Shown in pieces: positions 1 through 14,217 of a stretch of DNA of 64,000 bases. Origin of the DNA: Streptomyces sp. Je 1-369 (GTDB lineage Bacteria > Actinomycetota > Actinomycetes > Streptomycetales > Streptomycetaceae); contig NZ_CP101750.1 in assembly GCF_026810505.1 (NCBI RefSeq), positions 897,448-961,447 on the forward strand, given 5' to 3'. Position numbers and translations under genes: made by a program. The notes below the pieces were generated by a model. That model saw only the letters and a program-made list of their open reading frames with translations, ran no database searches and was not told where the DNA came from. Each line of letters begins with the position of its first letter. Position 1 is the stretch's first letter.

Positions 1-163
1 AGCGCTCCAGGAGCAGTTCGGTGGCGAGGCCCGAGCCGCAGCCGACGTCGGCGACGACGCCGCCTGCCGGGGCTTCGCAGATGTCGACCAGGCGCTGGGT
101 GACGTCGCCGTAGAGGGGGCGGCGCGACATCGCGTCGAACTCGTATCCGTGGACGAAGGTCAT
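1..163 (-). CDS. SAM-dependent methyltransferase, N-terminal 54 residues only
   Basis: This is the start of a class I methyltransferase cut by the left edge of the window. The visible protein opens MTFVHGYEFDAMSRRP and reaches the glycine-rich SAM-binding motif I, DVGCGSGLATE, at about residues 40-50. That motif is standard in Rossmann-fold methyltransferases; the substrate cannot be read from it. The ATG overlaps the stop of the upstream amidohydrolase in an ATGA, so it is probably translated by coupling as a late gene of the long minus-strand operon. It could methylate a sugar or the scaffold of the product that the operon makes, but that rests on context alone. The rest of the gene lies outside the window. 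Confidence 0.8.
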   Translation of the reverse strand, partial: MTFVHGYEFDAMSRRPLYGDVTQRLVDICEAPAGGVVADVGCGSGLATELLLER

Positions 164-1086
164 GACACCTCGAAACGTCGATTCGGGCGGGTCGGGCGGG
201 GGGCCGGCGCGGCGTGGGGTGCGGTGGAGGCGAGCAGTCGCGCCGCCGTGCCTCCCATGAGGGCCTCGTACTCGCGCGGCGAGAGCGGGTCGCTGCCGGC
301 CGGCCACGGCCCGGGGTCCCGGGCCAGTTCCGCCGTGCGGGCCACGGAGCCGGTCATGGACGCGAAGGGGAAGTCGGTGCCCCACAGGAGCCGGTCGAGG
401 ACGCCGCTGCCGCGGGCGTGGGCGAGGGCCTTGGCGACGATGGCGGGCGGCTGGTAGGAGCCGAAGATGGACAGGTCCGCGTACAGGTTGGCGTGCCGGG
501 CGAGGAGTTCGACGCAGGGGCCGGTCCAGGGGGTGCCGAGGTGGGCGAGGATCACTTTCAGGCCGGGGAAGTCCTTGGCCACCTGTTCGACGAGGAGCGG
601 GGAGAAGAACCGGGGGTCCGCTTGGCGGGAGGGCGTGTAGCCGGTGTGGATCAGGACCGGGATGTCCAGGTCGGCCGCGGTCTCGTACACGTCGTACCAC
701 CGGCGGTCGGCGGGTGACATGCGCAGGTAGCAGGGGGCCGTCTTGAGTCCGCGCAGGCCGAGGCCGGTGACGGCCTCGCGCAGGCGCTCGGCGGCGCCGG
801 GGGTGCCCGCGTCGACGGAGGCGAAGCCGGTCAGGCGGTCGGGGTGGCGGGCGCACAGATCGGCGACGAACTCGTTGGGCACCGAGAACCCTTCGACGCG
901 CCGCACGTCGAAGGCGAGCAGGAAGACGCGGTCGACGCCCGCGGCGTCCATCTCGGCGAGCAGCTTGTCCTCCGGCGCGGTGAGGTCCTCGGGCGCCAGG
1001 TCGGTGGTGGCCGTCATCTGCTCGGCGAAGCGGGCCGAGTAGTGGCGGTAGTACTCCCCCGCGTGTACGTGCGCGTCGATGATCAC
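160..1086 (-). CDS. amidohydrolase family metal-dependent hydrolase
   Basis: This 308-residue protein belongs to the amidohydrolase-2 TIM-barrel family. Visible metal and catalytic ligands are the N-terminal HxH (H6, H8 in DAHVHAG), H147 (IHTGYTP), H182 (ILAHLGTPW) and D238 (GTDFPF), all in the expected order. Family members hydrolyse or decarboxylate small cyclic or aromatic acids, lactones and amides; the exact substrate is not deducible. The start is a GTG overlapping the stop of the preceding glycosidase-like gene (GTGA), and its own stop overlaps the methyltransferase start, so it sits inside a translationally coupled operon. It may open or decarboxylate an intermediate of that pathway. 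The 23-residue tail after the barrel is rich in Pro, Ala and Arg and is probably disordered. Confidence 0.87.
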   Translation of the reverse strand: MIIDAHVHAGEYYRHYSARFAEQMTATTDLAPEDLTAPEDKLLAEMDAAGVDRVFLLAFDVRRVEGFSVPNEFVADLCARHPDRLTGFASVDAGTPGAAERLREAVTGLGLRGLKTAPCYLRMSPADRRWYDVYETAADLDIPVLIHTGYTPSRQADPRFFSPLLVEQVAKDFPGLKVILAHLGTPWTGPCVELLARHANLYADLSIFGSYQPPAIVAKALAHARGSGVLDRLLWGTDFPFASMTGSVARTAELARDPGPWPAGSDPLSPREYEALMGGTAARLLASTAPHAAPAPRPTRPNRRFEVS

Positions 1087-2984
1087 GGCTGCCGCCCCTC
1101 GGACAGCGCCGGGTCGTCGCCGTGCCAGAACAGCAGGCGTACGCCCTTGGGTTCGAGGCGCAGCAGCTTCTCGCTCTCCGGGGTGCCGTCCGCCGCGGGG
1201 CGCCGCAGGACCGTGTCCACCGGTTCGGGCGCGTGGTTGATGACCACGCCGCAGCGTTCGTCGCCGCGTCCGAGGACGGTGGTCTCCACCGACGGGTTGT
1301 CCGCGGTCAGCGGCGCGCGGACACCCGCGTCCTCGGCGACCGCCTCGTACAGCCGGTGCCAGTCGGCTTCCCGCAGCCGGTAGGGGGCGTTGAGCTGTGC
1401 TTCGAGGGGGGCGTTGAGGTAGTGGACGCTGCCGTCGCCGAGTCGGTGGCGGGTCAGGGCGGGCGAGCCGTCGGCGAACGCGGCCAAGGTCTCGGCGCCC
1501 GCCGTGTCGATCACCGGGATCGGTTCCGCGTCCCAGTGCAGCGGGAAGCGCACGCCCGCCCAGGTGAACTCGGCGTGGGTGTCGTCGGCCCGCGTGAAGT
1601 CCCGTACGCGGACGCCGAACAGTTCCTCGTCGCCGGCGGCGTCCAACAGGCTGCCGGTGGAGTACAGCAGCACTCCCCCGGAGGTGACGTACCGGGCCAG
1701 GCGGCGGCGGTCGGGCAGCGACAGCCGGCGCGCGGAGGGGACGATCACCAGCGCGTGCCGCGCCAGCTCCGTGTCGCGGCCCGTGAACTCGTAGGGCAGG
1801 TGCGCCTGTTGGAGGAGCAGGTGGGCGTAGAAGGCGGCGGGGGCGTCGCTGCCCGAGGGCGTCAGGTATCCGGCTTCCTCCTGCTCGTCGGAGTCGGGGA
1901 CGAAGACGCCCACCGGGGCGGGCAGCGGCCTGAACCCGGCGAGTTCACCGCTCACGCGCCGGGCGAACGCTTGGTATTCGGCGAGGGCGGGCTTCTCGCC
2001 GCCGTCCGCGTCGAGGAGACCCACGCGCCGTTCGTTGGGCCGCAGCGCGTACGGCTTGCGTTCGGTGGTGAAGTCCTGCCAGCACCAGACGGCCGTGCCG
2101 ACCGCGCCTGCCGCGAACGCGGAGTGGGTCGCCGCCCGCAGGTACTGCGCGGCCGTGGTGTCGTCGCAGCCGTAGCTGCCCAGCTCGTCGACGTACACGG
2201 GCCGGTGGGCGCTGCCGCGCCGCACCAGGTAGGGCAGGAAGGCGGTGGCCTTGCGGGCCGCGACGGACTCGATGTGGAACGGCGTCCACACCGGGAAGCC
2301 GTGCAGCCCCACCATGTCGAGGCTCTCCGCGTGCTCCGGGCGGAAGGCGTGGCCGCCGAGGACCGCGGAGGGCTCGTTGGCCTGGAGCACCAGGGCGTCC
2401 GGGTCGGCGTCGCGGATCGCCGACGCCAGCATCCCCCACCACGCGCGCACCTCCTCGGGGCCGAGGGCGGCGGACGACCTGGAGTCGACGTGGATCACCT
2501 CGTCGCCCAGGTCGTAGGCGAGGATGTTCGGCTCGTCCCGCAGCTCGGCGGCGATGTGGTGGACGAAGGCGCGCTGCCGCTCACGCAGGTCCGCGTCGCG
2601 CCACAGGTCACGGCCGTCGCGCCACGGCAGGTCGAACCGCTGGCCGTTCATCCAGATCGTCAGGAGCGAGGGGAGGCACAGGAGGCCGTGCCGCCCGGCG
2701 GTGCGGACCAGATCCCGCAGCCGGTCCGTCGTCGCGGAGTCGTAGACGCCTTCCTTGGGTTCGAAGTCGGCCCAGAAGACGAAGAAGCGGACGGTGTTCA
2801 GGCCCTCCGCGGCCATTCGCCGGAAGTCGTCGTCGATGCGGTCGCCGTCCCACTCACGCCAGTAGTCGCACCCCGTCGGCGAGGGATGGTAGTTGACGCC
2901 GACGCTGACGAACGGGTGCCCGTCGCGGTGGAGGGCCCCGTCGGTGAACGTGACGCGCCCGCCGTTCACGATGTCTCCGGCCAT
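1083..2984 (-). CDS. glycoside hydrolase-like protein (GH5/GH42-type barrel with C-terminal GATase-like domain)
   Basis: This 633-residue cytoplasmic-looking protein resembles clan GH-A glycosidases. The barrel covers about residues 20-345: it starts with SVGVNYHPSP, has a probable acid/base glutamate at E162 (AYDLGDEV) and a probable nucleophile at E267 (VYVDELGSYG). The residue before E162 is Asp where most GH-A enzymes have Asn, so activity is uncertain. A type-1 glutamine-amidotransferase-like domain (about 355-500, with ALVIVPSARRLSLPDR) and a small beta domain follow, as in GH42 beta-galactosidases. I chose the ATG at 2984 because the homologous sequence begins there; the longer open frame runs through the aminotransferase gene and is a shadow. 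It overlaps that gene by 19 bp. A glycosidase inside a sugar-attachment operon could remove a protecting sugar or trim the product. Confidence 0.78.
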   Translation of the reverse strand: MAGDIVNGGRVTFTDGALHRDGHPFVSVGVNYHPSPTGCDYWREWDGDRIDDDFRRMAAEGLNTVRFFVFWADFEPKEGVYDSATTDRLRDLVRTAGRHGLLCLPSLLTIWMNGQRFDLPWRDGRDLWRDADLRERQRAFVHHIAAELRDEPNILAYDLGDEVIHVDSRSSAALGPEEVRAWWGMLASAIRDADPDALVLQANEPSAVLGGHAFRPEHAESLDMVGLHGFPVWTPFHIESVAARKATAFLPYLVRRGSAHRPVYVDELGSYGCDDTTAAQYLRAATHSAFAAGAVGTAVWCWQDFTTERKPYALRPNERRVGLLDADGGEKPALAEYQAFARRVSGELAGFRPLPAPVGVFVPDSDEQEEAGYLTPSGSDAPAAFYAHLLLQQAHLPYEFTGRDTELARHALVIVPSARRLSLPDRRRLARYVTSGGVLLYSTGSLLDAAGDEELFGVRVRDFTRADDTHAEFTWAGVRFPLHWDAEPIPVIDTAGAETLAAFADGSPALTRHRLGDGSVHYLNAPLEAQLNAPYRLREADWHRLYEAVAEDAGVRAPLTADNPSVETTVLGRGDERCGVVINHAPEPVDTVLRRPAADGTPESEKLLRLEPKGVRLLFWHGDDPALSEGRQP

Positions 2985-4117
2985 GCGGCGCTCACCGCCT
3001 CGACGACCTGCCGCACCTCGTCCTTGCCGATGCCGGGGTGCAGCGGCAGGGAGAGCTGACGTGCCATCACGTCCTCGGTGACGGGGAGCCGGCACGGTCC
3101 TCCCCTGCTGCGCCGCTGGTAGGCGGAGAACAGGTGGGTGGGCGGATAGTGCACGCCGCTCTGGATCCGGGCGGCGCGCAGCCGGTCCTGGAGCGCGTCG
3201 CGGTCGGTGCCCGCCGGCAGCACCACCACGAACAGGTGGTGGGCGCTCTCCTCCACCGGCCGGTCGGCGTAGGGCACCGTGATGCCGGGCAGCGACGCCA
3301 GCTGCTCGCGGTACAGCGCGACCGCTTCCTGTCGGCGGACCTGCCCCGCGGGCAGCGCTTCGAGTTGTACGCGGCCGATGGCGCAACCGATCTCCGTTGG
3401 ACGGTAGTTGAGGCCCAGGGTGTCGACGTCGTACAGGGACGACCCGCCGTGGTGGCGCTGCTGGGCGCTGACGGTCAGGGCGTGCGAGCGCAGCCGCCGG
3501 ATGCGGTCGGCGACGGCGGGGTCGCGGGCGACGACCATGCCGCCCTCCCCCATGGCCAGGTTCTTCGTGGCGAAGAAGCTGAAGCAGCCGATGTCGCCGA
3601 CCGTGCCGAGCATGCCGTGGGCCGAGTCCGTGACGGGGGCGTGGGCGCAGTCCTCGATGAGGGCGAGGCCGTGCGTGCGGGCCAGGCGGGCGAGGGCGGT
3701 CAGGTCGGCGGGTTGGCCGCCGTAGTGCATGGTGACGATCGCGCGGGTGCGCGGGGTGATCCTGCGGGCGGCGTCCTCGGGGTCGATGGACAGGTCGTGC
3801 GGGCCCTTGACGTCGGCGAAGACCGGGGTGGCGCCGGACAGGGCGACGGTCGCGGCGGCCGACACGAAGTTCAGCGAGGGCAGGACGACCTCGTCGCCCG
3901 GACCGAGGTCCAGGCCAAGGACGGCCAGGTGCAGGGCGGCGGTGCCGCTGCTGACGGCGACCGCGGACCCGACGCCGAGCGCGGCCGCGAACCTGCCCTC
4001 GAAGTCCTCGGTGACCGGCCCGGACGACAGCCATCCGGAGCGCAGGACCTGGGTGACCGCCTCGATCTCGGCCTGCCCGATCTGCGGGCGGTACAGCGTG
4101 ATGTCGAACGCCGTCAT
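2966..4117 (-). CDS. DegT/DnrJ/EryC1/StrS-family sugar aminotransferase
   Basis: This 383-residue PLP enzyme is a clear member of the sugar aminotransferase family that converts keto groups on NDP-sugars to amines. Key features are SSGTAAL (56-62) for phosphate binding, the IEDCAHA stretch with the cofactor-binding D156, and the Schiff-base lysine K185 in FFATKNLAMGEGG. Length and fold order are normal. It starts with an ATG overlapping the stop of the nucleotidyltransferase (ATGA). With the NDP-sugar dehydrogenase, epimerase and nucleotidyltransferase upstream, it likely makes an amino sugar, possibly an amino-uronic derivative, that the GT4 enzyme transfers. Some family members instead aminate cyclitols, so an aminocyclitol is the main alternative. 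Confidence 0.93.
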   Translation of the reverse strand: MTAFDITLYRPQIGQAEIEAVTQVLRSGWLSSGPVTEDFEGRFAAALGVGSAVAVSSGTAALHLAVLGLDLGPGDEVVLPSLNFVSAAATVALSGATPVFADVKGPHDLSIDPEDAARRITPRTRAIVTMHYGGQPADLTALARLARTHGLALIEDCAHAPVTDSAHGMLGTVGDIGCFSFFATKNLAMGEGGMVVARDPAVADRIRRLRSHALTVSAQQRHHGGSSLYDVDTLGLNYRPTEIGCAIGRVQLEALPAGQVRRQEAVALYREQLASLPGITVPYADRPVEESAHHLFVVVLPAGTDRDALQDRLRAARIQSGVHYPPTHLFSAYQRRSRGGPCRLPVTEDVMARQLSLPLHPGIGKDEVRQVVEAVSAAWPETS

Positions 4118-4878
4118 CCGGACACCACCTCCTCGAAGGCGCCGGTGCCCGCGCCGAGGACCGCCGCGGCGCCGCGGCCCAGGTAGCGGGCGCGGTCGTT
4201 GCGCAAGGCCGCGGCGGCCCGGTTCAGCTGCTCGGGCGTGCCGATGTCGTGCCAGTCCCCTTCGATGACATGGCCCTCGACACGCTCGCCCTCGGCCCGC
4301 GCGCGGTCGAGGAGGGCGGGCATGTCGTCCCGGACGCGGGGCGTGAGCAGCCGCAGCAGGGACGGTTCGAGTACGTAGATGCCCCCGTTGACCAGGAAGC
4401 TCAGGCGCGGCTTCTCCTGGAAGTCGGTCACCCGGCGGTCGTCGTCGAGTTCCACCACGCCGTGCGCGATGTCGATGTACTGACGGGTGAGCGCGACGGT
4501 GGCGGCTGCCCGGGACTTCTTGTGGCGTGCCATCAGGTCGGCGAAGTCGATGTCGGTGAGCAGGTCCGCGTTCATCACGAGCGTGGAGTCCTCGAAAGGC
4601 GGCAGCAGCGCGAGCGGGCCCGCCGTGCCCAGTGGCTCCTCCTCCAGGAAGAAGTCCAGTTCGAGGCCGGCCCAGCGGTTCCCGCCGAAGCTCGCCTCGA
4701 TCATGTGGGCCTGGTGGCCGAGCGAGAGCGACACGTGGGTGAAACCGGCACTCCGCAGCTGCGCCAGGATGATGTGCAGGATCGGTGTGCCGTCGATGGG
4801 TACGAGGGGTTTGGGGATGGTCAGGGTGTGCGGCCGTAACCGCCGGCCCACACCTCCGGCCAGTACCACTGCTCTCAT
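4114..4878 (-). CDS. sugar-phosphate nucleotidyltransferase
   Basis: This 254-residue protein carries the N-terminal signature LAGGVGRRLRPHT followed by PKPLVPI, where the glycine-rich loop and lysine bind the nucleotide triphosphate. The NADLLTDID segment near residue 105 supplies the metal-binding aspartate. The family joins a sugar 1-phosphate to a nucleotide to form an NDP-sugar and pyrophosphate. It is compact, without a beta-helix acyltransferase domain. Sequence features do not distinguish glucose, mannose or heptose 1-phosphate as substrate, nor the nucleotide base. It is translationally coupled at both ends (ATGA overlaps) to the glycosyltransferase and aminotransferase genes, so it probably supplies the activated sugar for this operon. 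Confidence 0.91.
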   Translation of the reverse strand: MRAVVLAGGVGRRLRPHTLTIPKPLVPIDGTPILHIILAQLRSAGFTHVSLSLGHQAHMIEASFGGNRWAGLELDFFLEEEPLGTAGPLALLPPFEDSTLVMNADLLTDIDFADLMARHKKSRAAATVALTRQYIDIAHGVVELDDDRRVTDFQEKPRLSFLVNGGIYVLEPSLLRLLTPRVRDDMPALLDRARAEGERVEGHVIEGDWHDIGTPEQLNRAAAALRNDRARYLGRGAAAVLGAGTGAFEEVVSG

Positions 4879-5957
4879 CGGGCCTTCTCCGTTTGCTTCC
4901 GGGCGGCGGTCAGCGTGCGGTAGACGGTGTGGACCCGGTCGGCGACCGCGTCCCAGCCGAGTTCACGGCGCACCTTGTCGCGGCCGTGCTCTCCCATGGC
5001 GCGGCGTTCGGACGGGTCGGCGAGGAGCCGGTTGACCGCGTCGGCGACGGTTTGCGGGGTGGGGCGGACGAGCAGGCCGTCCCGTCCGTGGGCGATGATC
5101 TCCCCGCTGCCGAGGAACGTGGACGCGACGACGGGTTTGCCGCAGGCCCACGCCTCCACGTACACGAGCGGGAAGAGGTCGACGGTGGAGGGCACGCACA
5201 GCAGCTCGCAGGCGGCGAGGGCGCTGTGCTTGACGTCCTCGTCGACCATGCCGAGCTCGATGACGCGGGGTCCCGCGTACCGGGCGAAGTGTTCGGCGCA
5301 GTCGTCGTCCCAGCGCGGGCCCAGGAACACGAAGGACGTGTCGGGGTGGTCCCGCCAGATGTGCTCGGTGGCCTCCAGGAGCGTGACGTAGCCCTTGGAG
5401 CGCGTCTTGCGTCCGAGGAAGAGCACCATCGGCCCTTCGATGCCGTGTGCGCGGCGGAACCCTTCGGGGTCGGGGGTGCCGGGCAGATGCGGTCCCTGGC
5501 CGATGATGTGCAGCCTGCGTCCGTCGACGCCCGCGTCACGGAGCATGTCGCGCTCCGCCTCGGACAAGGCGAAGACGGCGTCCGCGTTCCTGCATCCGTT
5601 CAGTACGGTCTCGCGGTCGGGCCAGACGTCGGGGGCGGAGGCCGGGGTGACGGCGAACGGCACGTTCCAGGCGTGGGCGAGGTCGAGGCCTGCCGCGATG
5701 TCCTGCGGGTGGAACGCGTCGATGGCGTGGACCAGGTCGGCCCGGTCCGTGTCGTCGGGCGTGGCGGGCAGCGGCTGGATGCTCACGCCGGAGCTGCGCA
5801 TGAACGCCGCGGTGTCCTCGTCGACGGGGTTCGAGTACACCCCGGCCTCCCAGCCGAGGCGGCTCATCGACGCCGCGAGGTACTGCGTCATCAGTTCGGC
5901 TCCGGCGCGCGCCGGGAAGTAGCCGCGGTGGACGTACCGTACGCGCACGTCGCTCAC
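4875..5957 (-). CDS. GT4-family glycosyltransferase
   Basis: This 360-residue protein has the two-domain GT-B layout of family 4 retaining glycosyltransferases. The N-terminal domain begins VRYVHRGYFPARAGAELM; the C-terminal donor domain includes MVLFLGRKTRSKGY (basic residues that contact the donor phosphates) and the VYVEAWACGKPVVAS element with the conserved glutamate and helix. I chose the GTG at 5957 because it overlaps the epimerase stop as GTGA; the longer open frame upstream reads through the epimerase gene. No signal peptide or membrane segment is visible, so it acts in the cytoplasm. It likely transfers the sugar made by neighbouring enzymes to a small-molecule acceptor; a cell-surface glycan acceptor is possible. 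Confidence 0.9.
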   Translation of the reverse strand: MSDVRVRYVHRGYFPARAGAELMTQYLAASMSRLGWEAGVYSNPVDEDTAAFMRSSGVSIQPLPATPDDTDRADLVHAIDAFHPQDIAAGLDLAHAWNVPFAVTPASAPDVWPDRETVLNGCRNADAVFALSEAERDMLRDAGVDGRRLHIIGQGPHLPGTPDPEGFRRAHGIEGPMVLFLGRKTRSKGYVTLLEATEHIWRDHPDTSFVFLGPRWDDDCAEHFARYAGPRVIELGMVDEDVKHSALAACELLCVPSTVDLFPLVYVEAWACGKPVVASTFLGSGEIIAHGRDGLLVRPTPQTVADAVNRLLADPSERRAMGEHGRDKVRRELGWDAVADRVHTVYRTLTAARKQTEKAR

Positions 5958-6946
5958 GCTCCGCTTCCGCGGGCCGCGGCGGCCCTGGGGTGCCGGGCGT
6001 ACCACTCGCAGGTGCGGCGCAGCCCCTCGCTGAGCGGTACCGCCGGGCTGTATCCGGTCAGTTCGCGCAGCCGGGCGATGTCGGGGAGGCGGCGGGCCGG
6101 GGACAGCGGGGGCGCCGGGTGGACGTCGAGGACCGGGTGGCGGTCCAGGGCGTCGAAGACGTGCCGGGCCAGATCCCTGATGAGGATCTCCTCCTGGTCG
6201 TTGCCGACGTTGACCAGCAGCGGTTCCTTGGTGGGCAGGGCGGTCAGCGCGACGATGGCGTCGACCGCGTCGTCGACGTAGCAGAACGCGCGTGTCTGGT
6301 CGGCGCCGTGGATCGCGAAGGGGTCGGCGCCGCCGAGGAGCCGCTCGACGAACTGCGGGATCACGTGGTCGTACCCCATGCGCGGCCCGTAGACGTTGTG
6401 GAAGCGCACCATGCGCAGGGCGAAGCCGTGGGTGCGGGCGTACGTGCGGCACAGCAGCTCGCCGGTGATCTTGCTGAAGCCGTACGAGGAGCGGGGCACC
6501 GTCAGGTCGGGGACCATCAGCGGCACGTCCTCGTCCGTGGGGACGGACGCGATGCCGGCCTCGACGCTGCCCGCGTAGGCCTCGCTGGAGGAGGCGAAGC
6601 AGAGGGTGGCGCCGGTCAGTCCCGAGAACCAGTCGAGGAGGTGGACGGTGGTGAGCAGGTTGGTGCGCAGCACCCGCCGCGGGTTGTCGTTGGACTCGGC
6701 GACGCCGACGACGGCGGCCAGGTGGTACACCTCGGCGTAGTCGTCGCCGAGCAGCCCGTCGGGCACCGGGGTGGTCAGGTCGTGCTCGACGAGCTCCACG
6801 GTGCCGAGGAGTGCGGAGAGCTCCGCGTCGGACCGGCCCCTGCTGAAGTCGTCGAGCAGCGTGACGTCGCAGGTGGCGGCGGCACGGCGGGCCAGGTGCA
6901 GGCCGATGAAGCCCGCTCCTCCGGTGATCAGGATCTTCTTACGCAC
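5954..6946 (-). CDS. NAD-dependent sugar epimerase/dehydratase (extended SDR)
   Basis: This 330-residue extended short-chain dehydrogenase has the nucleotide-binding GGAGFIG (9-15) and the catalytic Tyr155-Lys159 pair in SYGFSKITGE, with an upstream serine pair near 120. It lies among UDP-galactose 4-epimerase, UDP-glucuronate decarboxylase and dTDP-glucose dehydratase relatives. Because the gene just upstream encodes an NDP-sugar dehydrogenase that makes uronic acids, a 4-epimerase or decarboxylase acting on an NDP-uronate is the most economical role. It starts with GTG and overlaps the dehydrogenase by 8 bp; its stop overlaps the glycosyltransferase start. The sequence alone does not decide which sugar reaction it performs. 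Confidence 0.9.
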   Translation of the reverse strand: MRKKILITGGAGFIGLHLARRAAATCDVTLLDDFSRGRSDAELSALLGTVELVEHDLTTPVPDGLLGDDYAEVYHLAAVVGVAESNDNPRRVLRTNLLTTVHLLDWFSGLTGATLCFASSSEAYAGSVEAGIASVPTDEDVPLMVPDLTVPRSSYGFSKITGELLCRTYARTHGFALRMVRFHNVYGPRMGYDHVIPQFVERLLGGADPFAIHGADQTRAFCYVDDAVDAIVALTALPTKEPLLVNVGNDQEEILIRDLARHVFDALDRHPVLDVHPAPPLSPARRLPDIARLRELTGYSPAVPLSEGLRRTCEWYARHPRAAAARGSGA

Positions 6947-8243
6947 GGCCGAGCCTCATCGCCTTCGTCGTGGGCGGGAGGACCCGCCAGGTGTCGTAGA
7001 CCAGCGCAGGGTCCGCCATGCGCGCCACCAGGTCGGCGGCGTCGACGTCGCCGTAGCGCACGTGGTCGTTCAGGAGGATCGCCGCGTGCGCTCCGGTGAA
7101 GCCCTCGGTGAGGTCGACGGGCCGGACGCCGAGCGACTCGATGCGGGCCGTCGGCACCACGAAGTCGTGGCCGACGATCTCCTTGACCCGGCCCTTGAGG
7201 AACGGCAGCAGCCGCTCGTAGGGCGCTCCGCGCAGGTCGTCGGTCTCGGGTCGGCCCTTGTAGGCGAACCCGGAGATCAGGATCCTGGCGTCGGCGGGGT
7301 CGATGCCCTGTTCCGACAGAGCGGCCAGAACGCGTTCGCCGACCCTGCGGGGCATGGACTCGTTGAGCGTGCGGGCGGCGGTGATCACCTGCGGGACGTG
7401 GTCGTACGCCGCGACCGAGTGCGCGAGCAGGTACGGGTCCTTGGTGAGGCAACTGCCGCCGACGAAGCCGGGCTTGTGGAGGTTGGGCCTCGGATAGTCG
7501 AGGTTGGCGGAGTCGATGACCTCCCGCGCGTCAAGACCCAGCTTCTCGGTGATGAGCGCGACCTCGTTGCCGAAGCCGTAGATCAGGTCGGTGTGGCAGT
7601 TGCACACCAACTTGACGAGTTCGGCTGCCTCCAGTGAGGAGACGGGTACGACCTGGTCGGAGAGCGTGCCGAAGAACTCGGCGGCCCGCTTGCCCGCGTC
7701 GTCGCTGAGTCCGCCGACGATCTGCGGCAGCGAGAGGATCTCCGCCAGCGCCTGGCCCTGAATGGTGCGCTCCGGGCAGTACGCGATCAGGGGCTCGGGG
7801 ATCCGCTCGCTCAGGACGGGCAGCACGAGGCTCCGTGAAGTACCGACCGGCACGGTGCTGCGCACGATGACGAGGGTGGTCTCGTCGATGCCTCCCGCGA
7901 TCGCCTCGGTGGCGGCCCGCAGGTGGCTGAGGTCGGGGGCGGTGCCGCCGGTCTCGATCGGTGTGCCGACGCAGATGATGACGACGGGCGGCAGCTTCTG
8001 CCCGCGCACGTCGGTGGTGACACCGAAGGCACCGCTCGCGGCCGCGCCCCTGATCTCCTCCTCGACGCCGGGTTCGGCCAATTCGAGTACGCCCTCGGCG
8101 AGTTCGGCCGCCACCTTCGGGTTGGTCTCGTAGCCGAGCACGCTTCTGCCGGTGGTCAGCAGCGCGGCGGTGAGGGTGACGCCGACATAGCCCTGCCCGA
8201 CGACGCACACGTCGTAGTCCTCGTACGGCCTGGTCGATGGCAT
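6939..8243 (-). CDS. UDP-glucose/UDP-ManNAc-type nucleotide-sugar dehydrogenase
   Basis: The product oxidises the C6 hydroxyl of a nucleotide sugar to a carboxylate with two NAD. It has the Rossmann motif VVGQGYVGV near residue 15, the ICVGTPIE loop, a central dimerisation domain and the catalytic cysteine in FVGGSCLTKDPY (C265 from the chosen start). Length, 434 residues, is normal. An ATG two codons earlier (8249) is possible, but an AGGGAG ribosome-binding site ends only 2 bases before it and 8 bases before the ATG at 8243, so I prefer the latter. It opens the sugar half of the operon after a 99-bp gap containing tandem repeats. Spacing around the catalytic loop resembles the WecC/TviB group more than plain UDP-glucose dehydrogenases, but that is an impression. 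Confidence 0.9.
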   Translation of the reverse strand: MPSTRPYEDYDVCVVGQGYVGVTLTAALLTTGRSVLGYETNPKVAAELAEGVLELAEPGVEEEIRGAAASGAFGVTTDVRGQKLPPVVIICVGTPIETGGTAPDLSHLRAATEAIAGGIDETTLVIVRSTVPVGTSRSLVLPVLSERIPEPLIAYCPERTIQGQALAEILSLPQIVGGLSDDAGKRAAEFFGTLSDQVVPVSSLEAAELVKLVCNCHTDLIYGFGNEVALITEKLGLDAREVIDSANLDYPRPNLHKPGFVGGSCLTKDPYLLAHSVAAYDHVPQVITAARTLNESMPRRVGERVLAALSEQGIDPADARILISGFAYKGRPETDDLRGAPYERLLPFLKGRVKEIVGHDFVVPTARIESLGVRPVDLTEGFTGAHAAILLNDHVRYGDVDAADLVARMADPALVYDTWRVLPPTTKAMRLGRA

Positions 8244-8285
8244 TGACATAGCTCCCTGGAGGTGCGGTTCATGCGGTCACGACTT

Positions 8286-8328
8286 CAGGTCTTCCGGTCT
8301 TTCAGGTCTTCCGGTCTTTCAGGTCTTC
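8286..8328. repeat. 17-bp tandem repeat, 2.5 copies
   Basis: The unit CAGGTCTTCCGGTCTTT occurs at 8286-8302 and 8303-8319 with no mismatch, followed by a partial third copy (CAGGTCTTC) at 8320-8328. It fills most of the gap between the creatininase-like gene and the sugar dehydrogenase gene, which are both on the minus strand. It is not coding. It could be a replication-slippage product, a regulator-binding array, or an RNA element separating the two halves of the operon. Confidence 0.9.
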
Positions 8329-8342
8329 GCTCAGTGATGTGT

Positions 8343-9122
8343 TCAGGAGTCCCGGGGCGGTTTGCCGAGGAGGTCCACGGCGCCGTCGACCAGGTGCCGG
8401 AACAGGCGCTCCCCCAGTTCCGCGGAGGCGCCGACGGCGGACGACAGCACCCCCTGGTCCGAGATCTCGTGCACGTCGACGGGGTGCCGGTAGACCCCCG
8501 CGGGCGGCGGCGCGTCGTGACTGGGGCGTGCCGCCCGGACGGTGTCGGGGCGGAGGTACATCATCAGGCTCGTCTCGGTCAGGCCCGCGTGCTCCGCGTG
8601 CCAGCCCGGGAAGTGCGGGATGTGCTCGCCGAGCCACTCCTCGGCGACCAGGCTCCACCAGCTGAAGGCGAGCACCTCGGTGTCCGGGAAGAGGGTGGCC
8701 TGGGCGCAGTCGTCGAGCGCCTCGAAGAGCAGGCCCTCGTTCTCGTAGTGCCCGTTGATGACGACGAGGCGGGCGGGCCCGAGGCGGGCGAGGGACGTCA
8801 GGCACTCCGTGAGGTAGTCGATGAACGTGCTGCCGCCGATGTGCACGGTGCCCGGGAAGTGCAGTCCGCCGCCGCTCTGCGGCAGCGACCTCGCCGAGAA
8901 CGGCTGGCCGGGCAGCAGCAGACCGCCGGCCTCCGCGACCACCTGGCGGGCCAGGGCGTCCGGGATGTCCATGTCGACCGAGAGCGGGAGATGAGGGCCG
9001 TGCTGTTCGAGGCCGCCCACCGGCCACACCAGAGTGGCGCCGTCCATGGCCTGCCGCACTTCCGCGCTGGTCAGGTCGCCGTAGCGCGGTACGTCCGTGG
9101 CGCGTTGCCGTATCACGTTCAC
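8343..9122 (-). CDS. creatininase-family amidohydrolase
   Basis: This 259-residue protein matches the creatinine amidohydrolase family. The metal-binding signature WPVGGLEQHGPHLPLSVDMD carries the Glu, His and Asp ligands, SLPQSGGGLHFPGT follows, then NGHYENE and HAEHAGLTETSLMM, in the same order as in Pseudomonas creatininase. The family opens cyclic amides and includes enzymes acting on creatinine, on formamidopyrimidines in flavin-type cofactor pathways, and mycofactocin MftE. The gene starts with GTG one base after the stop of the dihydroorotate-dehydrogenase-like gene, with AAGAAGG upstream. Neighbours that act on pyrimidine-like rings suggest a ring-opening step on a nucleobase-like or cyclic amide intermediate. 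I do not assign creatinine as the substrate. Confidence 0.85.
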   Translation of the reverse strand: MNVIRQRATDVPRYGDLTSAEVRQAMDGATLVWPVGGLEQHGPHLPLSVDMDIPDALARQVVAEAGGLLLPGQPFSARSLPQSGGGLHFPGTVHIGGSTFIDYLTECLTSLARLGPARLVVINGHYENEGLLFEALDDCAQATLFPDTEVLAFSWWSLVAEEWLGEHIPHFPGWHAEHAGLTETSLMMYLRPDTVRAARPSHDAPPPAGVYRHPVDVHEISDQGVLSSAVGASAELGERLFRHLVDGAVDLLGKPPRDS

Positions 9123-9123
9123 C

Positions 9124-10074
9124 TCATGCCTTCTTGATGCTGCGTCCCACCAGGTCCGCGACCGTGCCGCCGTGCGAGGCGAGCCAGTCGTCGAAGCCCT
9201 GGCGGATGGTGCGGAGCGTGGCGTGCATGTTGCGGTGCAGCACCGTGTAGACCTGCACGGCGTCGGCGCCGACGCTCAGGTACTCCGCCACGTCCGCGGC
9301 GTCGTTGACTCCGCCGCTCGCCATGACGGGCACGGTGAGGCCGTCGCGGCGCAGGCCGTAGATCTCGGCGAGCACGAGCGGTTTGATGCCGGGCCCCGAG
9401 TAGCCGAACGCTCCGCCCAGGCGCACCTCACCGGTGTCCGCGTCGACGGCGAGGCCGGAGATGGTGTCGCTCAGGGTGAGCGCGTCCGCGCCGGAGGCCG
9501 TGGCGGCGTCGATGCGCTCCCGCACCCGCTCCCCGATCGCCAGCTTGACGCTGAACGGCACCGAAGTGCGGCTCCGCACCGCCTCCGTGTACGCGGCGAC
9601 GCGCTGGGGAGTGTCCTCCAGAGCGCCGTCCTCCTCGTTCAGGCACGAGATGCCGAGTTCGAGTGCGGTACTGCCCGCCTCGGTCACGCGCTCGGCCAGG
9701 TCGGCGAGTTCGGTCGGCGTGTCCGCGTGCACGGACGTGATCACCGGCAGTTCGTCGTCGGCGAACCGGCGCAGCATCGCGCACCAGTCGTCCACCGAAC
9801 GGCGTGAGTACGTCGTGCTGTTGAGCATGCCGGTGGACAGGCGGAGCAGGCGTTCGTTGCCCGAAGGTCCCGGGCTCGGGTGGATGGTCTTGGTGACCAC
9901 AGCTCCCGCGCCGCCCGCGAGGAGCCGGCGGATGTTGCGTTCCTGGTCGGTGAGCAGGCCGGAGCCCACGACGACGGGGGACTTCAGGCGCAGGCCGAGG
10001 ACCTCCACCGGGGCCGCGGTGGCGGCGGTCTCGGGTGCCTCGGGCCGGTGCGTTCCGCCCTCGGCCGCCGTCAC
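9124..10074 (-). CDS. dihydroorotate dehydrogenase-like flavoprotein
   Basis: This 316-residue FMN-binding TIM-barrel protein resembles class 1 dihydroorotate dehydrogenases and the C-terminal half of dihydropyrimidine dehydrogenase. The FMN phosphate site is visible as VMASGGVNDAADV followed by GADAVQVYT. The usual NLSCPN substrate loop is altered to GISCLNEED, and MLNSTTYS replaces the common asparagine-rich active-site segment, so the substrate is probably not dihydroorotate. It starts with GTG overlapping the upstream stop (GTGA). The first 25 residues are Ala/Glu rich and poorly conserved. Position between a nucleoside-deoxyribosyltransferase-like gene and a creatininase-like gene supports a redox step on a pyrimidine-like or other cyclic amide ring. 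Confidence 0.82.
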   Translation of the reverse strand: MTAAEGGTHRPEAPETAATAAPVEVLGLRLKSPVVVGSGLLTDQERNIRRLLAGGAGAVVTKTIHPSPGPSGNERLLRLSTGMLNSTTYSRRSVDDWCAMLRRFADDELPVITSVHADTPTELADLAERVTEAGSTALELGISCLNEEDGALEDTPQRVAAYTEAVRSRTSVPFSVKLAIGERVRERIDAATASGADALTLSDTISGLAVDADTGEVRLGGAFGYSGPGIKPLVLAEIYGLRRDGLTVPVMASGGVNDAADVAEYLSVGADAVQVYTVLHRNMHATLRTIRQGFDDWLASHGGTVADLVGRSIKKA

Positions 10075-10616
10075 TGCGCCATCACTGCTTCCTGGCCCAG
10101 CTTCTCGAGCAGCCGGAGCAGATCGGTGGGGTCGGCCTGCGCCTCCACCAGGTCGACGACGGTGACGTCGGCGACGGACGGCAGGCCGCGCAGCAGGTGG
10201 CTCGCGTTGGGCGCCAAGGGCATCGGGGTGACGATGACGATGGGCTTGTTCAGGGCGGAGGCCCAGCCGAGTTCGACGTGGGTGCCGTCGGTGCGCATCA
10301 GTTCACCGGCCGCGTCCACGGGGAGCACCGGTACGAACACGTCGCAGCGGCGCATCCAGCCGATGTCGCGCACGCTGACCTGGTCCGGCGAGAACAGGGG
10401 CGTGTCGATGCCGAACTTCTCGGCCACGTGGGCGGAGAAGACCGTGCCGTGGGCGGCGGTGACGGCCTCGATGATGTCGCCGATCGCATGCTGCAACGGC
10501 TGGTGGAAGCCGTCGTCACGGATCGCGTGCTGGATGGGGCCGCCGACGAATACGTTGACTCCCGTCAGGTCGATGCCGTCCGTACCGTTGACGCGGACCA
10601 CCGTGCTGTCACTCAT
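10071..10616 (-). CDS. nucleoside 2-deoxyribosyltransferase-like protein
   Basis: This 181-residue protein looks like the small Rossmann-like nucleoside deoxyribosyltransferase family. The family nucleophile fits E115 in DGTHVELGWASALNK, and the upstream RRCDVFVPVLP strand and the N-terminal VNVFVGGPIQ strand match the fold. Family members cleave or exchange N-glycosidic bonds; BlsM and MilB, which hydrolyse CMP in nucleoside antibiotic pathways, belong to the same superfamily. I placed the start at the ATG at 10616, which overlaps the aldehyde dehydrogenase stop (ATGA); the longer open frame is a shadow of that gene. Free-base release from a nucleotide to feed the ring-modifying enzymes downstream is an attractive role, but it is inference. 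Confidence 0.75.
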   Translation of the reverse strand: MSDSTVVRVNGTDGIDLTGVNVFVGGPIQHAIRDDGFHQPLQHAIGDIIEAVTAAHGTVFSAHVAEKFGIDTPLFSPDQVSVRDIGWMRRCDVFVPVLPVDAAGELMRTDGTHVELGWASALNKPIVIVTPMPLAPNASHLLRGLPSVADVTVVDLVEAQADPTDLLRLLEKLGQEAVMAQ

Positions 10617-12073
10617 GACGTCTCCCGATCTGCTTGGCGAAGGCGAAGCGCGCTGTGGTGCACTTTGAGCTGCGTGTACTCGTTCAGACCCCATGCGCCG
10701 TACTCGACGCCGAGCCCGGAGTGCCGGTGCCCGCCGAACGGCACGTCGTGCCGGAGGGCGCCGTGGGTGTTGATCCACACGGTTCCGCACGCGGGCCGCC
10801 CGGCCAGTTCCCGCGCCCGGTCCTCGTCGCCCCACAGGGAGCAGCCGAGCCCGTAGGGCGAGGCGTTGACCCGGGCGAAGACCTGCTCCAGGTCGTCGTA
10901 GGGGATGACGGGGATCACCGGGCCGAACTGCTCCTCCTCTTCGAGGCGGCTGCCGGGCGGCAGGTCGGTGACGACGGTGGGGGGATAGAAGTGGCCCGGC
11001 ACGTCGAGGGCCCGGCCGCCGGCCAGGACGTCGGCTCCCGCCGCCACGGCATCGTCCACCAGGCTCGCGACCCACTCGAGCTGGGCGCGGTTGACGAGCG
11101 GACCGTACTCGGTGGCCGGATCGAGCCCGTCGCCCACGATCGCCGTCCTCGCCTTCTCCGCCAGGGCTTCGGCGAGTCGGCGGTACGTGGCACGGGGCGC
11201 GTAGATCCGCTTGACCGCGGCGCAGAACTGGCCGCTGTTGGTCATGGCCGCGGTGAACAGGTCCGGTGCGACGGACGAGACGTCGGTGCCGGACAGTACG
11301 ACGGCGGGGTCGTTGCCGCCGAGTTCGAGGACGACCCGTTTCAGGTCGGCCGCGGCCTGCCGGGCGATGGCGCGGCCCGCGCCGACCGACCCGGTGAAGG
11401 ACACCATCCGGACCGCGGGGTGGACGGTGAGCCGGGCGCCGAGCTCGACGTCGCCGTCCACGACCGCGAAGGTGCCCCGGGGCAGGACTTCACCGAGGAC
11501 CCGGCCCATCATCAGGCTGGACAGTGGCGTGTCCGGGGACGGCTTGAGCACCACGGTGTTGCCGGCCAGGAGCGCCGGGGCGATCTTGCAGACGGCCAGC
11601 AGGACAGGGAAGTTGGACGGCGCGATCGCGGCGACCACGCCGTACGGCACGCGTTCCACGTCGACCCGTGCATCGGCCTCGTCGACCAGCTGCTCCGGCG
11701 CGAGCCCCAGCTCAGCGGTGCGGGCGAACCACTCGGCGGCCAGGCCGACTTCGGCCCTGGCGTGTTTCAGGGGCTTGCCCTGTTCCCGGGTGAGCAGTTC
11801 GGCCATCGGGTCCACCGCGCCGAGCAGGGCGCGGTGGCACGAGCGGAGCCGCTCGCGGCGTTCCGCCAAGGGGGTCGCCGCCCAGCCGGGGAAGGCGCGG
11901 GCCGCTTCGTCGAGCACGTCGTCGAGCTGTTCGGGCGTACATCCCGGGGCTTCGGCGAATGCCTCGCCGAGTGCCGGATTCTCGACCGGGGTCGGTCCGT
12001 ACCGTACGGATCCGGGGGCGCCCGGGGGGAACTCGGCACGGGGGGAAGCGAGTTGATCAACAGATGAGGACAT
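10613..12073 (-). CDS. aldehyde dehydrogenase
   Basis: This 486-residue NAD(P)-dependent enzyme oxidises an aldehyde to the acid. The Rossmann FTGSVGAGR segment (about 226-234), the general base E250 (LELGGND) and the catalytic cysteine C284 (NSGQFCAAVKR) are all present, and length is normal for the family. It is the first gene of the long minus-strand operon; the start codon is an ATG at 12073 with only a weak ribosome-binding site. Its relatives include succinate-semialdehyde and betaine-aldehyde dehydrogenases, so the substrate is open. Being at the head of the operon and coupled to the next gene, it probably supplies or matures an acid in the pathway. Confidence 0.93.
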   Translation of the reverse strand: MSSSVDQLASPRAEFPPGAPGSVRYGPTPVENPALGEAFAEAPGCTPEQLDDVLDEAARAFPGWAATPLAERRERLRSCHRALLGAVDPMAELLTREQGKPLKHARAEVGLAAEWFARTAELGLAPEQLVDEADARVDVERVPYGVVAAIAPSNFPVLLAVCKIAPALLAGNTVVLKPSPDTPLSSLMMGRVLGEVLPRGTFAVVDGDVELGARLTVHPAVRMVSFTGSVGAGRAIARQAAADLKRVVLELGGNDPAVVLSGTDVSSVAPDLFTAAMTNSGQFCAAVKRIYAPRATYRRLAEALAEKARTAIVGDGLDPATEYGPLVNRAQLEWVASLVDDAVAAGADVLAGGRALDVPGHFYPPTVVTDLPPGSRLEEEEQFGPVIPVIPYDDLEQVFARVNASPYGLGCSLWGDEDRARELAGRPACGTVWINTHGALRHDVPFGGHRHSGLGVEYGAWGLNEYTQLKVHHSALRLRQADRETS

Positions 12074-12414
12074 GGGTTCCCGTCACGAGGGGGTCGCGTA
12101 GGGGCGGTTGTCGACTGTCGACTGCTGAAGAGAGCGCGGTCCTGCGGGGAGGGAGGGGGAGGAGCGGTGCGGGGTGGGAGCGGCGGAGTGGTGGGAGGGG
12201 TGCGTCCCGCTGCCGGGACTCCGCGTCTTCCGTGACCTGCGTGACCTGGGGAACAGTCTTGCCGGGTCCCCGGTGATCGAACACCCCCACTTTGGGCTAG
12301 GGTCATCCGGCTACTCCGAACGCCCGGCGTCCGGGCATGCCGAGGCGCCGGCCGTCGGCGGATCGCAGCCGGACGGTCGGCGCGCTTCGATGCGGCCCTG
12401 TGTGGCCCCGGTCC
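12074..12414. other. intergenic region upstream of the aldehyde dehydrogenase operon
   Basis: No convincing gene lies in these 341 bases. The region must hold the promoter of the minus-strand operon starting at 12073. Visible structure includes a tandem GTGACCTGC repeat at about 12232-12249 and an imperfect CCCCAC-TTT-GGG inverted element at about 12285-12296. Neither can be assigned to a known regulator. Convincing -35 and -10 boxes are not visible. Confidence 0.6.
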
Positions 12415-13836
12415 CTACGTGTTGGCGGGCGTGGTCCCCCCGGTGATGCCCACGGCGGCGGCCGGATCTGGCTCTTCCCCGGCACTCTCGGCGTACTCGA
12501 CCAGCAAACGCTCGATGTCGTAGAGGAACGAATGGACCTCGGACGGCGGGAGCGCCCGGTGGTCGGCGTTGAGCACCATGCGGATCCAGCCGGGGACCTC
12601 GTCGTCGATCACGATGAAGAAGGTCTCGCCCTCCTCGAACTCATCGGGAGCGACGACGGTGTCGGCCATCGCGGCCCGCAGCCCGCCGTCGGACACGGGA
12701 TCGCCGTCCTCGGCCGCGTCGGGCAGCGCCTGTTCCTCCCGTACGTCGTTGAAGCAGTACGAGAGGTCGACGGGTGCGCCGGGCCCACGGGCCGAGGCGA
12801 TCAGACGCGCCACGTCGTCGGGATCGTAGAGTCCGTTCGCGTACGCGGTCGTACACGCGGCGAGAGCCCCGCGCGCGACGTCCTCGTCACGGTCGCCCTC
12901 CAGGCCGATCGTCACCGGCACCTCCGAGTGCAGGTTGGCGACGGTCCCGCGCACGTCAGGGTCCGACCGGTTCGCCGTGAGCAGGCGCAGGGTGCACGAC
13001 GACACCCCCGCGCGGCGGCCCAGGAGTTGCGCGACGACGGTCAGCAGCACGACGGACGTGCTCACCCGCCAGCGCCGGGCCAGGACAGGCACCGCGAGTG
13101 CCACGGCGCGGGAGCTCATGCCGGCGCTGTAGCGGACCGGGCCCGCGGGGCCGCCCCGGTCCGGGAACAGGGTCGTGGGCGCGCTGTCGAGCTGGCGGCA
13201 CCAGTAGGCACGCGCGCGTGCTTGCAGGGCACGGCCCCGCGGTGAGTACTCCAACCGCGCCTGTTCGACGGGCTGTCGCGCGGGCACGGCGGGCGGCAGG
13301 GGCCGGCCGGCCGCACGCGCGTCATGGAGCCGGGTCATCTCGTCGGCCAGCATCCGCACCGACGTCAGGTCGACCGCGAGGTGGGACACACAGAACGCGG
13401 CGAGCACCGGAGCTCCGTCGACGACGGTCACCATGAACCGGATGAGCGGGGCCCGTGCCGGGTCGAAGGGAGTGTGCCGCATCCGGCGCTCCCACGCCTG
13501 ACGCACACCGTCCGGGTCGTCGTGCGCCGCGAGAGCCCACACCTCGGCCTCGAACTCGTCGGCGTCCACCACTTGTTGTACGAGGAAACCGTCCTCGTCC
13601 CGGTGGAATCCGGTGCGGAGCGACTCGTGGCGCCCGAGCAGCTCGGCGAAGGCGTCGAGCAGGTCCTGTGCGGTGCCGCGGCCGGGCAGGGCCACCCAGT
13701 AGCACACGTCGTAGAAGGCGGCGTCGGGTAGTTGCTCCTGCATCAGGTTCCAGATGTGCCGCTGGGCGCAGGTGGCCGGCGCGGTGACCGCCCGTCGTCC
13801 AGCGAAGGGGATACGGTGCCGGACGAATTCGGCCAC
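12415..13836 (-). CDS. free-standing condensation-domain protein (NRPS C-domain superfamily)
   Basis: This 473-residue protein is a single condensation-type acyltransferase domain with no adenylation or carrier domain. The N-terminal TCAQRHIWNLMQEQLP matches the first C-domain motif; RHESLRTGF matches the next; the catalytic His motif is SHLAVDL (H152, D156), where the usual HHxxxDG has Ser for the first His and Leu for the Gly. The second His and the Asp, which matter most for catalysis and structure, are kept. I chose the GTG at 13836 because GGA lies 8 bases upstream; the frame extends further to 14007 without a start signal. It may form an amide or ester between an activated acid and the product of the nearby operon, perhaps with the AMP-ligase at 19.2 kb. 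Confidence 0.8.
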   Translation of the reverse strand: MAEFVRHRIPFAGRRAVTAPATCAQRHIWNLMQEQLPDAAFYDVCYWVALPGRGTAQDLLDAFAELLGRHESLRTGFHRDEDGFLVQQVVDADEFEAEVWALAAHDDPDGVRQAWERRMRHTPFDPARAPLIRFMVTVVDGAPVLAAFCVSHLAVDLTSVRMLADEMTRLHDARAAGRPLPPAVPARQPVEQARLEYSPRGRALQARARAYWCRQLDSAPTTLFPDRGGPAGPVRYSAGMSSRAVALAVPVLARRWRVSTSVVLLTVVAQLLGRRAGVSSCTLRLLTANRSDPDVRGTVANLHSEVPVTIGLEGDRDEDVARGALAACTTAYANGLYDPDDVARLIASARGPGAPVDLSYCFNDVREEQALPDAAEDGDPVSDGGLRAAMADTVVAPDEFEEGETFFIVIDDEVPGWIRMVLNADHRALPPSEVHSFLYDIERLLVEYAESAGEEPDPAAAVGITGGTTPANT

Positions 13837-14174
13837 GGCTCGGTCCTTTCCAGCACGGTGAGGTGAGTTGGGACGCGCTGTTTCACGGTAACTCCGGCTT
13901 CGCGCGGGCGTCACCCGCGCTTTCGGGGCTGACCGTTCGGTCACCTCCGGACCGCTCGGGCTGCCCGATACGGCGCACCGAACGGCCGCCCAGTGGGGGC
14001 TTCCCACAACATTCGGGCACCGCGAGTATCGGGTGCATGCGAGTTATCCGACGCGTCGCGACGCACGGCATGCGGATTTCCGGATATCCGGGAAAGCCGG
14101 TACACGTGACGTAGGGCCTAACGGGCCCGACCCAGGGGCTTTCGGACCCGGCGTCGGGTCCTACAAAAAGAAGC
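13837..14174. other. intergenic region between condensation gene and LuxR terminator
   Basis: No gene is evident in these 338 bases. The region should contain the promoter of the minus-strand condensation-domain gene. The only strong structure is the palindrome at 14077-14095, listed separately. Confidence 0.6.
14077..14095. promoter_or_regulatory. candidate operator palindrome
   Basis: A perfect 12-bp palindrome, CCGGATATCCGG at 14080-14091, is flanked by TTT on the left and GAAA on the right, giving a nearly symmetric 19-bp element. It lies 241 bp upstream of the condensation-domain gene and just beyond the terminator of the LuxR-type regulator. It does not match the known PAS-LuxR box. 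A regulator-binding site is plausible; which protein binds is unknown. Confidence 0.4.
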
Positions 14175-14206: not shown

Positions 14207-14217
14207 ATGACGGCCCG

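Follow-up and report, generated by a model that had tools for sequence, protein, structure and literature searches.

What is made by a row of twelve closely packed genes in which enzymes that act on nucleosides and cyclic amides stand beside enzymes of amino- and uronic-sugar metabolism? The row opens a stretch of 64,000 nucleotides from Streptomyces sp. Je 1-369 (contig NZ_CP101750.1), hereafter the window, which covers positions 897,448–961,447 of an 8.82 Mb chromosome present as a single contig. A preliminary description had called the row uncharacterised and had predicted a glycosylated product derived from a nucleobase or a lactam. Analysis of the locus and its relatives indicates that the row is very probably the central part of a gene cluster for a pyrrolamide, of the congocidine/distamycin/anthelvencin family and probably of its anthelvencin branch. 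Gene content, order, conservation, motifs and the co-occurrence of modules are observations, while each reaction and the product are assigned from knowledge of the family. The cluster comprises 22 genes in ~26 kb, from about position −5,260 to 20,746 (negative positions lie to the left of the window), with the twelve-gene row as its middle.

Identification of the cluster

The locus contains the hallmarks of a pyrrolamide cluster. Sugar-type genes for a pyrrole precursor lie, in a conserved order, beside stand-alone condensation (C) and peptidyl carrier protein (PCP) genes, and are accompanied by genes for an amidohydrolase, a LuxR-type regulator, an ABC exporter pair and an AMP-binding enzyme. 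Genes specific for the anthelvencin subtype, with the predicted functions of an ATP-grasp ligase and a paralogue of ectoine synthase (ectC), are present as well, and the protein of the congocidine subtype that combines adenylation (A), PCP and C domains (Cgc18) is absent from the locus. An ectC/ATP-grasp pair without an A-PCP-C gene is what we take to mark the anthelvencin branch.

A contig scan with the glycosidase-like protein of the row yielded ten named loci, all from Streptomyces. Flanking sequence was added for six of the ten, and the 22 cluster proteins were compared with all of them by tblastn. All 22 genes are found in S. atriruber NRRL B-24165 with identities of 79–94%; S. melanogenes JCM 4398 contains 21, without the second condensation protein, and S. 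coffeae contains 20, with no match for ectC or the ATP-grasp protein. S. netropsis CECT 3265 likewise contains 20, with identities of 59–81% over the best tblastn segment. The gene order is the same in these four species, except for the aldehyde dehydrogenase (ALDH) gene in S. netropsis, and such conservation shows that the row is not a chance arrangement. At the remaining loci some absences are partial, the S. niphimycinicus locus lying on a 19 kb contig and those of S. uncialis, PR69 and CBMA123 having been read without extra flanks. With 20 of the 22 genes present in S. netropsis, and with the pyrrolamide clusters of another strain of that species published (PMC4047045), the label 'uncharacterised' does not hold. 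The cluster is neither undescribed nor housekeeping; its gene combination is uncommon but explained.

The large set of genes in common with S. netropsis would also suit a congocidine- or distamycin-type rather than an anthelvencin-type cluster. In S. netropsis, S. coffeae and the genome G175, however, a protein of 1,021–1,084 residues is encoded between the alcohol dehydrogenase (ADH) and PCP genes, which has the Pfam order A-PCP-C in S. netropsis and is recognised in the other two by its length and condensation-domain similarity. The same three loci encode an extra protein of 352–377 residues, recognised by place and length, between the creatininase and sugar dehydrogenase genes. At these places the window contains neither gene, and it has the ectC/ATP-grasp pair instead, which among the compared loci occurs only in the window, S. 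atriruber and S. melanogenes. In these three no A-PCP-C gene lies between ADH and PCP, the interval to which the search was confined. The extra S. netropsis protein (377 residues, L013:3569–4702) belongs to no Pfam family, and a search of the window's genome, run without a positive control, gave no match to it. A congocidine or distamycin type is accordingly improbable.

The pyrrole genes occur together with a trio of genes resembling nucleoside deoxyribosyltransferase (NDT), dihydroorotate dehydrogenase (DHODH) and creatininase in the window, S. atriruber, S. melanogenes, S. coffeae, S. netropsis, S. niphimycinicus, S. uncialis and G175, and without the trio, in the stretch seen, in S. megasporus, H27-S2, PR69, CBMA123 and G060. 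Stretches from six further genomes contain the trio without the sugar genes. This separate occurrence is as expected of two precursor routes and not of a single glycoside. It bears on the predicted glycosylated product, for which an amino or uronic sugar would be made and transferred onto a modified nucleobase. The glycosyltransferase, nucleotidyltransferase, aminotransferase and sugar dehydrogenase genes on which that prediction was built are real, and the NDT-like protein resembles a CMP (cytidine monophosphate) N-glycosidase, as in mildiomycin biosynthesis (PMC11784345). Nevertheless, the same gene order is found in S. netropsis, a pyrrolamide-producing species, and condensation proteins, a carrier and an AMP-binding enzyme flank the row. 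The sugar enzymes, moreover, look like enzymes of a pyrrole precursor. A glycosylated product is therefore improbable; its variant with a glycosylated lactam was dropped.

Distribution in the genus and the order

The distribution of the cluster was surveyed in 392 genomes of the genus and in 293 genomes of the order from nine genera, the window's own genome being included in both samples. The glycoside hydrolase (GH) marker is found in 7 of the 392 (E ≤ 1e-60) and in 5 of the 293, the latter all within the same genus; the cluster is thus rare and not housekeeping. The sugar-nucleotide gene families of the row would fit a housekeeping glycan or cell-wall locus, and the preliminary description had named such a locus, shared by most Streptomyces, as its possible refutation; against this rarity the explanation has practically no probability left, and the cell-wall glycan was dropped on these grounds. 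G050, G209, G425 and G591 carry the GH marker, and some of these may be genomes of the named loci. The creatininase is present in 10 of the 392 genomes (E ≤ 1e-60). The ATP-grasp protein is found in three (E ≤ 1e-30), strongly in the window's genome and G088 and at 39% identity in G178. The desaturase-family gene next to the cluster is found in two (E ≤ 1e-60), namely the two with the strong ATP-grasp match. In contig number and match positions, G088 agrees with G001, from which the S. atriruber locus comes.

Organization of the twelve-gene row

The twelve genes of the row all lie on the minus strand in the order originally described, which is borne out by their coordinates and Pfam families and, for the methyltransferase, by a motif for binding S-adenosylmethionine (SAM). 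Their tight coupling is likewise confirmed: nine of the eleven junctions overlap, by 4 bp in seven cases and by 8 bp and 19 bp in one case each, while the DHODH/creatininase and creatininase/sugar dehydrogenase junctions leave gaps of 1 bp and 93 bp, respectively. As had been expected, the row runs past the left edge; in the left 20 kb of the same chromosome the methyltransferase gene reaches position −643 and the same strand goes on. To the right, positions 12,415–20,746 belong to the same cluster, which had been overlooked. The idea of a specialised-metabolite cluster that joins nucleobase-processing with amino/uronic-sugar enzymes is supported. For three genes Pfam was run on the longest open frames (983, 525 and 334 residues), inside which the true starts lie.

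Predicted pyrrole module

The sugar enzymes of the row probably make an acetamidopyrrole precursor, as judged from their protein families. They comprise an NDP-sugar (nucleoside diphosphate sugar) 6-dehydrogenase (6939–8249) with three UDPG_MGDP_dh domains, an NAD-dependent SDR (5954–6946; Epimerase, 1.7e-41), a DegT-type C4-aminotransferase (2966–4117; DegT, 5e-110), a sugar-1-phosphate nucleotidyltransferase (4114–4878; NTP_transferase, 2e-35), a GT4 glycosyltransferase (4875–5957; Glycos_transf_1, 2e-27) and a GH42/GH5-like glycoside hydrolase (1083–2984; Pfam GH42M/GH42), whose start was placed at the ATG that overlaps the DegT gene by 19 bp. An ALDH (10613–12073; Aldedh, 1.9e-134), with the motifs ELGGND and GQFCAA, stands at the right end of the row. 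The sugar dehydrogenase carries the motif GGSCLTKD and scores above the cut-off of the NCBIfam model 'nucleotide sugar dehydrogenase'. The best four PDB matches of the SDR (4lk3, 2b69, 4gll and 4m55) are UDP-glucuronate decarboxylases, and no NCBIfam model reaches its cut-off for this protein. The best NCBIfam models of the DegT protein, PseC and UDP-4-amino-arabinose aminotransferase, both stay below cut-off.

These similarities are consistent with a route in which the dehydrogenase would oxidise C6 of UDP-GlcNAc (uridine diphosphate N-acetylglucosamine), the presumed substrate, and the decarboxylase-like SDR would remove C6 to leave a 4-keto sugar. The DegT enzyme would then aminate C4, the amine being the future pyrrole nitrogen, and the GT4 and GH enzymes would set free the modified sugar, in which the C4 amine could close on C1 to give a pyrrole with a C2 acetamido group. 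Finally, the ADH and ALDH would oxidise C5 to a carboxylate, with the ALDH performing the last oxidation, to yield 4-acetamidopyrrole-2-carboxylate. The scheme would explain where the ring and carboxyl carbons of this acid come from: C6 is lost, C1–C4 form the ring together with the C4 amine nitrogen, and C5 becomes the carboxyl group. The pyrrole reportedly originates from GlcNAc.

In S. megasporus and Streptomyces sp. H27-S2, where the amidine trio is missing from the stretch seen, the pyrrole genes are surrounded by a number of large genes that show similarity to condensation domains. These loci possibly direct the synthesis of other pyrrole-containing nonribosomal peptides.

Predicted amidine module

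The trio consists of an NDT-family protein (10071–10616), a flavoenzyme similar to DHODH and dihydropyrimidine dehydrogenase (9124–10074; DHO_dh, 4.8e-27) and a creatininase-family hydrolase (8343–9122; Creatininase, 5.1e-55). The NDT-like protein has seven sequence matches in the PDB to E 0.1, six of which are CMP N-glycosidases, CMP/hydroxymethyl CMP hydrolases or blasticidin M (BlsM); the seventh (E 0.061) looks like a chance match. The pattern GTHxExGWAxA is present in 12 of 13 sequences and is not found in that of S. atriruber as written. Judged by its closest solved relatives and this motif region, the protein fits a CMP N-glycosidase of the MilB/BlsM type. A mildiomycin- or blasticidin-like nucleoside cluster was also considered and dropped, since no tested enzyme other than the NDT-like one suggests it. 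In the PDB, the nearest relative of the DHODH-like protein is PyrD-B (1ep1), followed by dihydropyrimidine dehydrogenase (1gt8), and the motif ELGISC[LI]N is present in 13 of 13 sequences. The creatininase-like protein has EQHGPHLPLSVD and HAGxTET in all 13 sequences compared. It thus carries the creatininase-family motifs EQHGPHLP...D and HAGxTE, which presumably form the metal site, and with 195.6 bits against an NCBIfam cut-off of 235 the protein is not called a creatininase.

From these relationships, the trio probably turns CMP into 3-aminopropionamidine. The NDT-like enzyme would cut CMP to cytosine, the DHODH-like enzyme would reduce cytosine to dihydrocytosine, and the creatininase-like enzyme would hydrolyse the latter at C2. 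Loss of CO2 would then leave 3-aminopropionamidine, so that three enzymes would suffice.

Outside pyrrolamide clusters the trio occurs, without pyrrole genes, in six of the 392 genomes, and its genes are adjacent in all six (11.5–15 kb fetched from each). At four of these loci (L053, L054, L055 and L058, from genomes G269, G140, G030 and G067, respectively) it lies beside genes for an MFS transporter and a luciferase-like monooxygenase, which were identified by Pfam in L053 and by blastp relationship in the others. A flavin reductase-like gene is found in L053, with relatives in L054 and L058, and L055 has a gene of the FMN reductase family. The single short GH match, in L053, belongs to a beta-galactosidase of family GH42. 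These four loci possibly represent a small undescribed amidine-derived cluster. In the other two, L056 and L057 (G356 and G182), Pfam assignments for L056 and blastp relatives in L057 place the trio with genes for an ATP-grasp protein, an MFS transporter, a carrier protein, a class III aminotransferase, a ketosynthase and a FabA-like protein; this may be an amidinomycin-like cluster. The trio can also serve as a probe for further natural products that contain an amidine. A literature search on related amidine compounds, a weak test of whether the trio has been published, returned PMC4047045 as the only pyrrolamide paper.

Probable assembly, export and regulation genes

The assembly line is probably a set of stand-alone nonribosomal peptide synthetase proteins. 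On the left, the methyltransferase gene (−643 to 163; motif VADVGCGSG; matched in five of the ten named loci, with 74% identity in S. netropsis) overlaps by 16 bp with a condensation gene (−1962 to −628), which in turn overlaps by 4 bp with a zinc ADH gene (−3005 to −1959). A 68-bp gap separates the latter from the PCP gene (−3415 to −3074). A second, Cgc2-like condensation gene with a GTG start (12415–13842; Condensation, 1.4e-20; 59% identity to S. netropsis) lies on the right. All these genes are on the minus strand, as is the Cgc14-like amidohydrolase gene of the row (160–1086; Amidohydro_2, 5.4e-38; 79% identity to S. netropsis). The plus strand carries the gene of an acyl-CoA synthetase/adenylation enzyme of the AMP-binding family (19205–20746; AMP-binding, 5.9e-74; motif TSGSTGEPK; 62% identity to S. 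netropsis), which we take to be Cgc22-like. The serine motif of the carrier is kept in six of six sequences, as is the motif HHxxxDA of the left condensation protein. In the right condensation protein, SHxxxDL or a near variant of it replaces HHxxxDG in five of five.

Together, the AMP-binding enzyme, the carrier, the two condensation proteins and the amidohydrolase would string the units together and release the product with the amidine. The AMP-binding enzyme would activate the pyrrole, the methyltransferase would N-methylate it, and the amidohydrolase would deacetylate the acetamidopyrrole by analogy with Pya25/Cgc14, for which this role has been proposed (PMC4047045). In published models the pyrrole is loaded by the A-PCP-C protein (PMC4047045). 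No such gene is found in the three anthelvencin-type clusters, which leaves the stand-alone AMP-binding enzyme as the one candidate inside them for pyrrole activation. In S. melanogenes (at about 187.1 kb) the methyltransferase and ADH genes overlap with no condensation gene between them, and at other places in the S. melanogenes and S. uncialis genomes a search for a second condensation protein gave none at E ≤ 1e-60 (no positive control); the S. melanogenes product may have one amide bond fewer.

The remaining genes on the right encode a Cgc1-like LuxR-type regulator (14218–14895, minus strand; GerE, 6.3e-15; 69% identity to S. netropsis) and, on the plus strand, two ABC half-transporters. 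The first (15488–17326; ABC_membrane and ABC_tran; 72%) was started at the ATG after a ribosome-binding site, with Pfam run on the longer frame open from 15383; the second (17326–19221; ABC families) shows 76% identity. This pair would export the product and the LuxR protein would regulate the cluster. A single TTA codon is found in each of the nucleotidyltransferase and LuxR genes, and the count gave none for the remaining 20 frames.

Putative cap genes and the desaturase-family neighbour

The ectC paralogue (−5259 to −4882) and the ATP-grasp gene (−4842 to −3499) lie on the plus strand, divergent from the PCP, ADH and condensation genes. With L-ectoine synthase (5onn) the ectC-like protein gives a match of 5.6e-25, and NHxE and the Tyr/His region GMxYA...H are retained in three of three sequences. 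In the ectC family search, which was positive in none of 14 control genomes, a second and higher-scoring ectC was found at position 2,143,032 of the same chromosome (174.7 versus 111.3 bits). An ordinary ectoine operon was rejected on account of this better ectC and of the neighbouring desaturase-family and ATP-grasp genes. Ectoine synthase is reported to cyclise glutamine to a cyclic amidine. A profile of six ATP-grasp sequences, which takes in distant relatives from G178, L056 and L057, matches PDB sequences of PGM1 (3.9e-22), the 'ATP-grasp peptide ligase' 8ynd (6.9e-17) and the amino-acid ligase 8yi6 (8.8e-8); PGM1 is a peptide ligase. From glutamine, the ectC paralogue would thus form 5-amino-3,4-dihydropyrrole-2-carboxylate, a cap that the ATP-grasp protein would join to the carrier-bound aminopyrrole. 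The 39% relative of the latter in G178 (L061:7523–8875) has another setting, with PhyH-like and haem-oxygenase-like neighbours.

Head-to-head with the ectC paralogue, in three of three anthelvencin-type loci, lies a gene of the desaturase/hydroxylase family (−6500 to −5448, minus strand; 350 residues). Its product has three His boxes and a Pfam FA_desaturase match of 5.1e-37; the nearest NCBIfam model is an amino-acid hydroxylase, with 54.9 bits against a cut-off of 380, and no PDB match was found to E 0.1. The enzyme might act as a hydroxylase or desaturase on glutamine or on the cyclic-amidine cap; the cap would then be oxidised and would differ from the one in known anthelvencins. Because the collinearity of S. 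atriruber with the window extends far outside the cluster, only S. melanogenes lends independent support to the link, and the Pfam assignment to fatty-acid desaturases counts against it. We therefore consider it rather unlikely that anthelvencin-type clusters carry an undescribed oxidation step of this kind.

Strength of the assignment

Several observations weigh against the assignment to an anthelvencin-type pyrrolamide cluster. The label 'anthelvencin' itself is taken over, as a probable one, from the cluster that Aubry et al. 2020 reportedly described, and the anthelvencin structure offers no explanation for the desaturase-family gene. The ATP-grasp protein alone finds no match in the PDB to E 0.1, its Pfam match stays below the cut-off, and the AlphaFold2 model of its S. 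atriruber ortholog, built from a two-sequence alignment, is poor (mean predicted local distance difference test score 47.8). S. uncialis has pyrrole and amidine genes, yet the 22 kb seen contain no match for the methyltransferase, amidohydrolase, carrier or condensation proteins and none above 39% for the AMP-binding enzyme. An ALDH homolog is absent from all five pyrrole-only loci (of which PR69, CBMA123 and G060 are covered only over 15–22 kb), which weakens the assignment of the ALDH to the pyrrole route. Lastly, for strain CGMCC 4.1650 of S. netropsis, PMC4047045 reports a main cluster without cgc14, whereas the CECT 3265 locus does have the amidohydrolase (79%) in the cluster.

Comparison with known systems

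The anthelvencin cluster of S. venezuelae ATCC 14583 reportedly contains stand-alone synthetase domains, the ATP-grasp ligase Ant23 and a route to a glutamine-derived cyclic amidine cap. In these gene kinds the window's cluster, by its predicted functions, resembles it. The S. atriruber and S. melanogenes loci are of the same type as the window's cluster, including ectC, the ATP-grasp gene and the desaturase-family neighbour, and S. melanogenes differs by the missing second condensation protein. An anthelvencin cluster is mentioned in PMC10949845.

The congocidine (netropsin) cluster of S. ambofaciens, with 22 coding sequences, has been published and is described in PMC4047045, PMC11195616 and PMC11784345; congocidine binds the DNA minor groove at A-T pairs (PMC8410849). 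PMC4047045 describes two common precursors and proposes roles for the amidohydrolase and the stand-alone C and PCP proteins. Genes of like kind in the window's cluster correspond to the amidohydrolase Cgc14, the stand-alone C proteins Cgc2/Cgc16 and the PCP Cgc19 (PMC4047045), and to the LuxR-type regulator Cgc1 (PMC11784345); in sequence the comparison runs only via S. netropsis. S. netropsis CGMCC 4.1650, a strain other than the CECT 3265 compared here, produces congocidine and distamycin and has a congocidine-like cluster (PMC4047045). In CECT 3265 the ALDH gene is found on the opposite strand, past the A-PCP-C gene, the extra 377-residue protein is present, and ectC and the ATP-grasp gene are lacking. 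With the operon now placed in a named antibiotic class, the strain can be checked for rediscovery; the UV wavelength used for pyrrolamides in PMC4047045 is 297 nm. Compared with the congocidine cluster, that of the window has no Cgc18-like A-PCP-C gene and adds the ectoine synthase paralogue, the ATP-grasp gene and the desaturase-family neighbour, and the comparison as a whole reveals pyrrole, amidine tail and cap as interchangeable parts.

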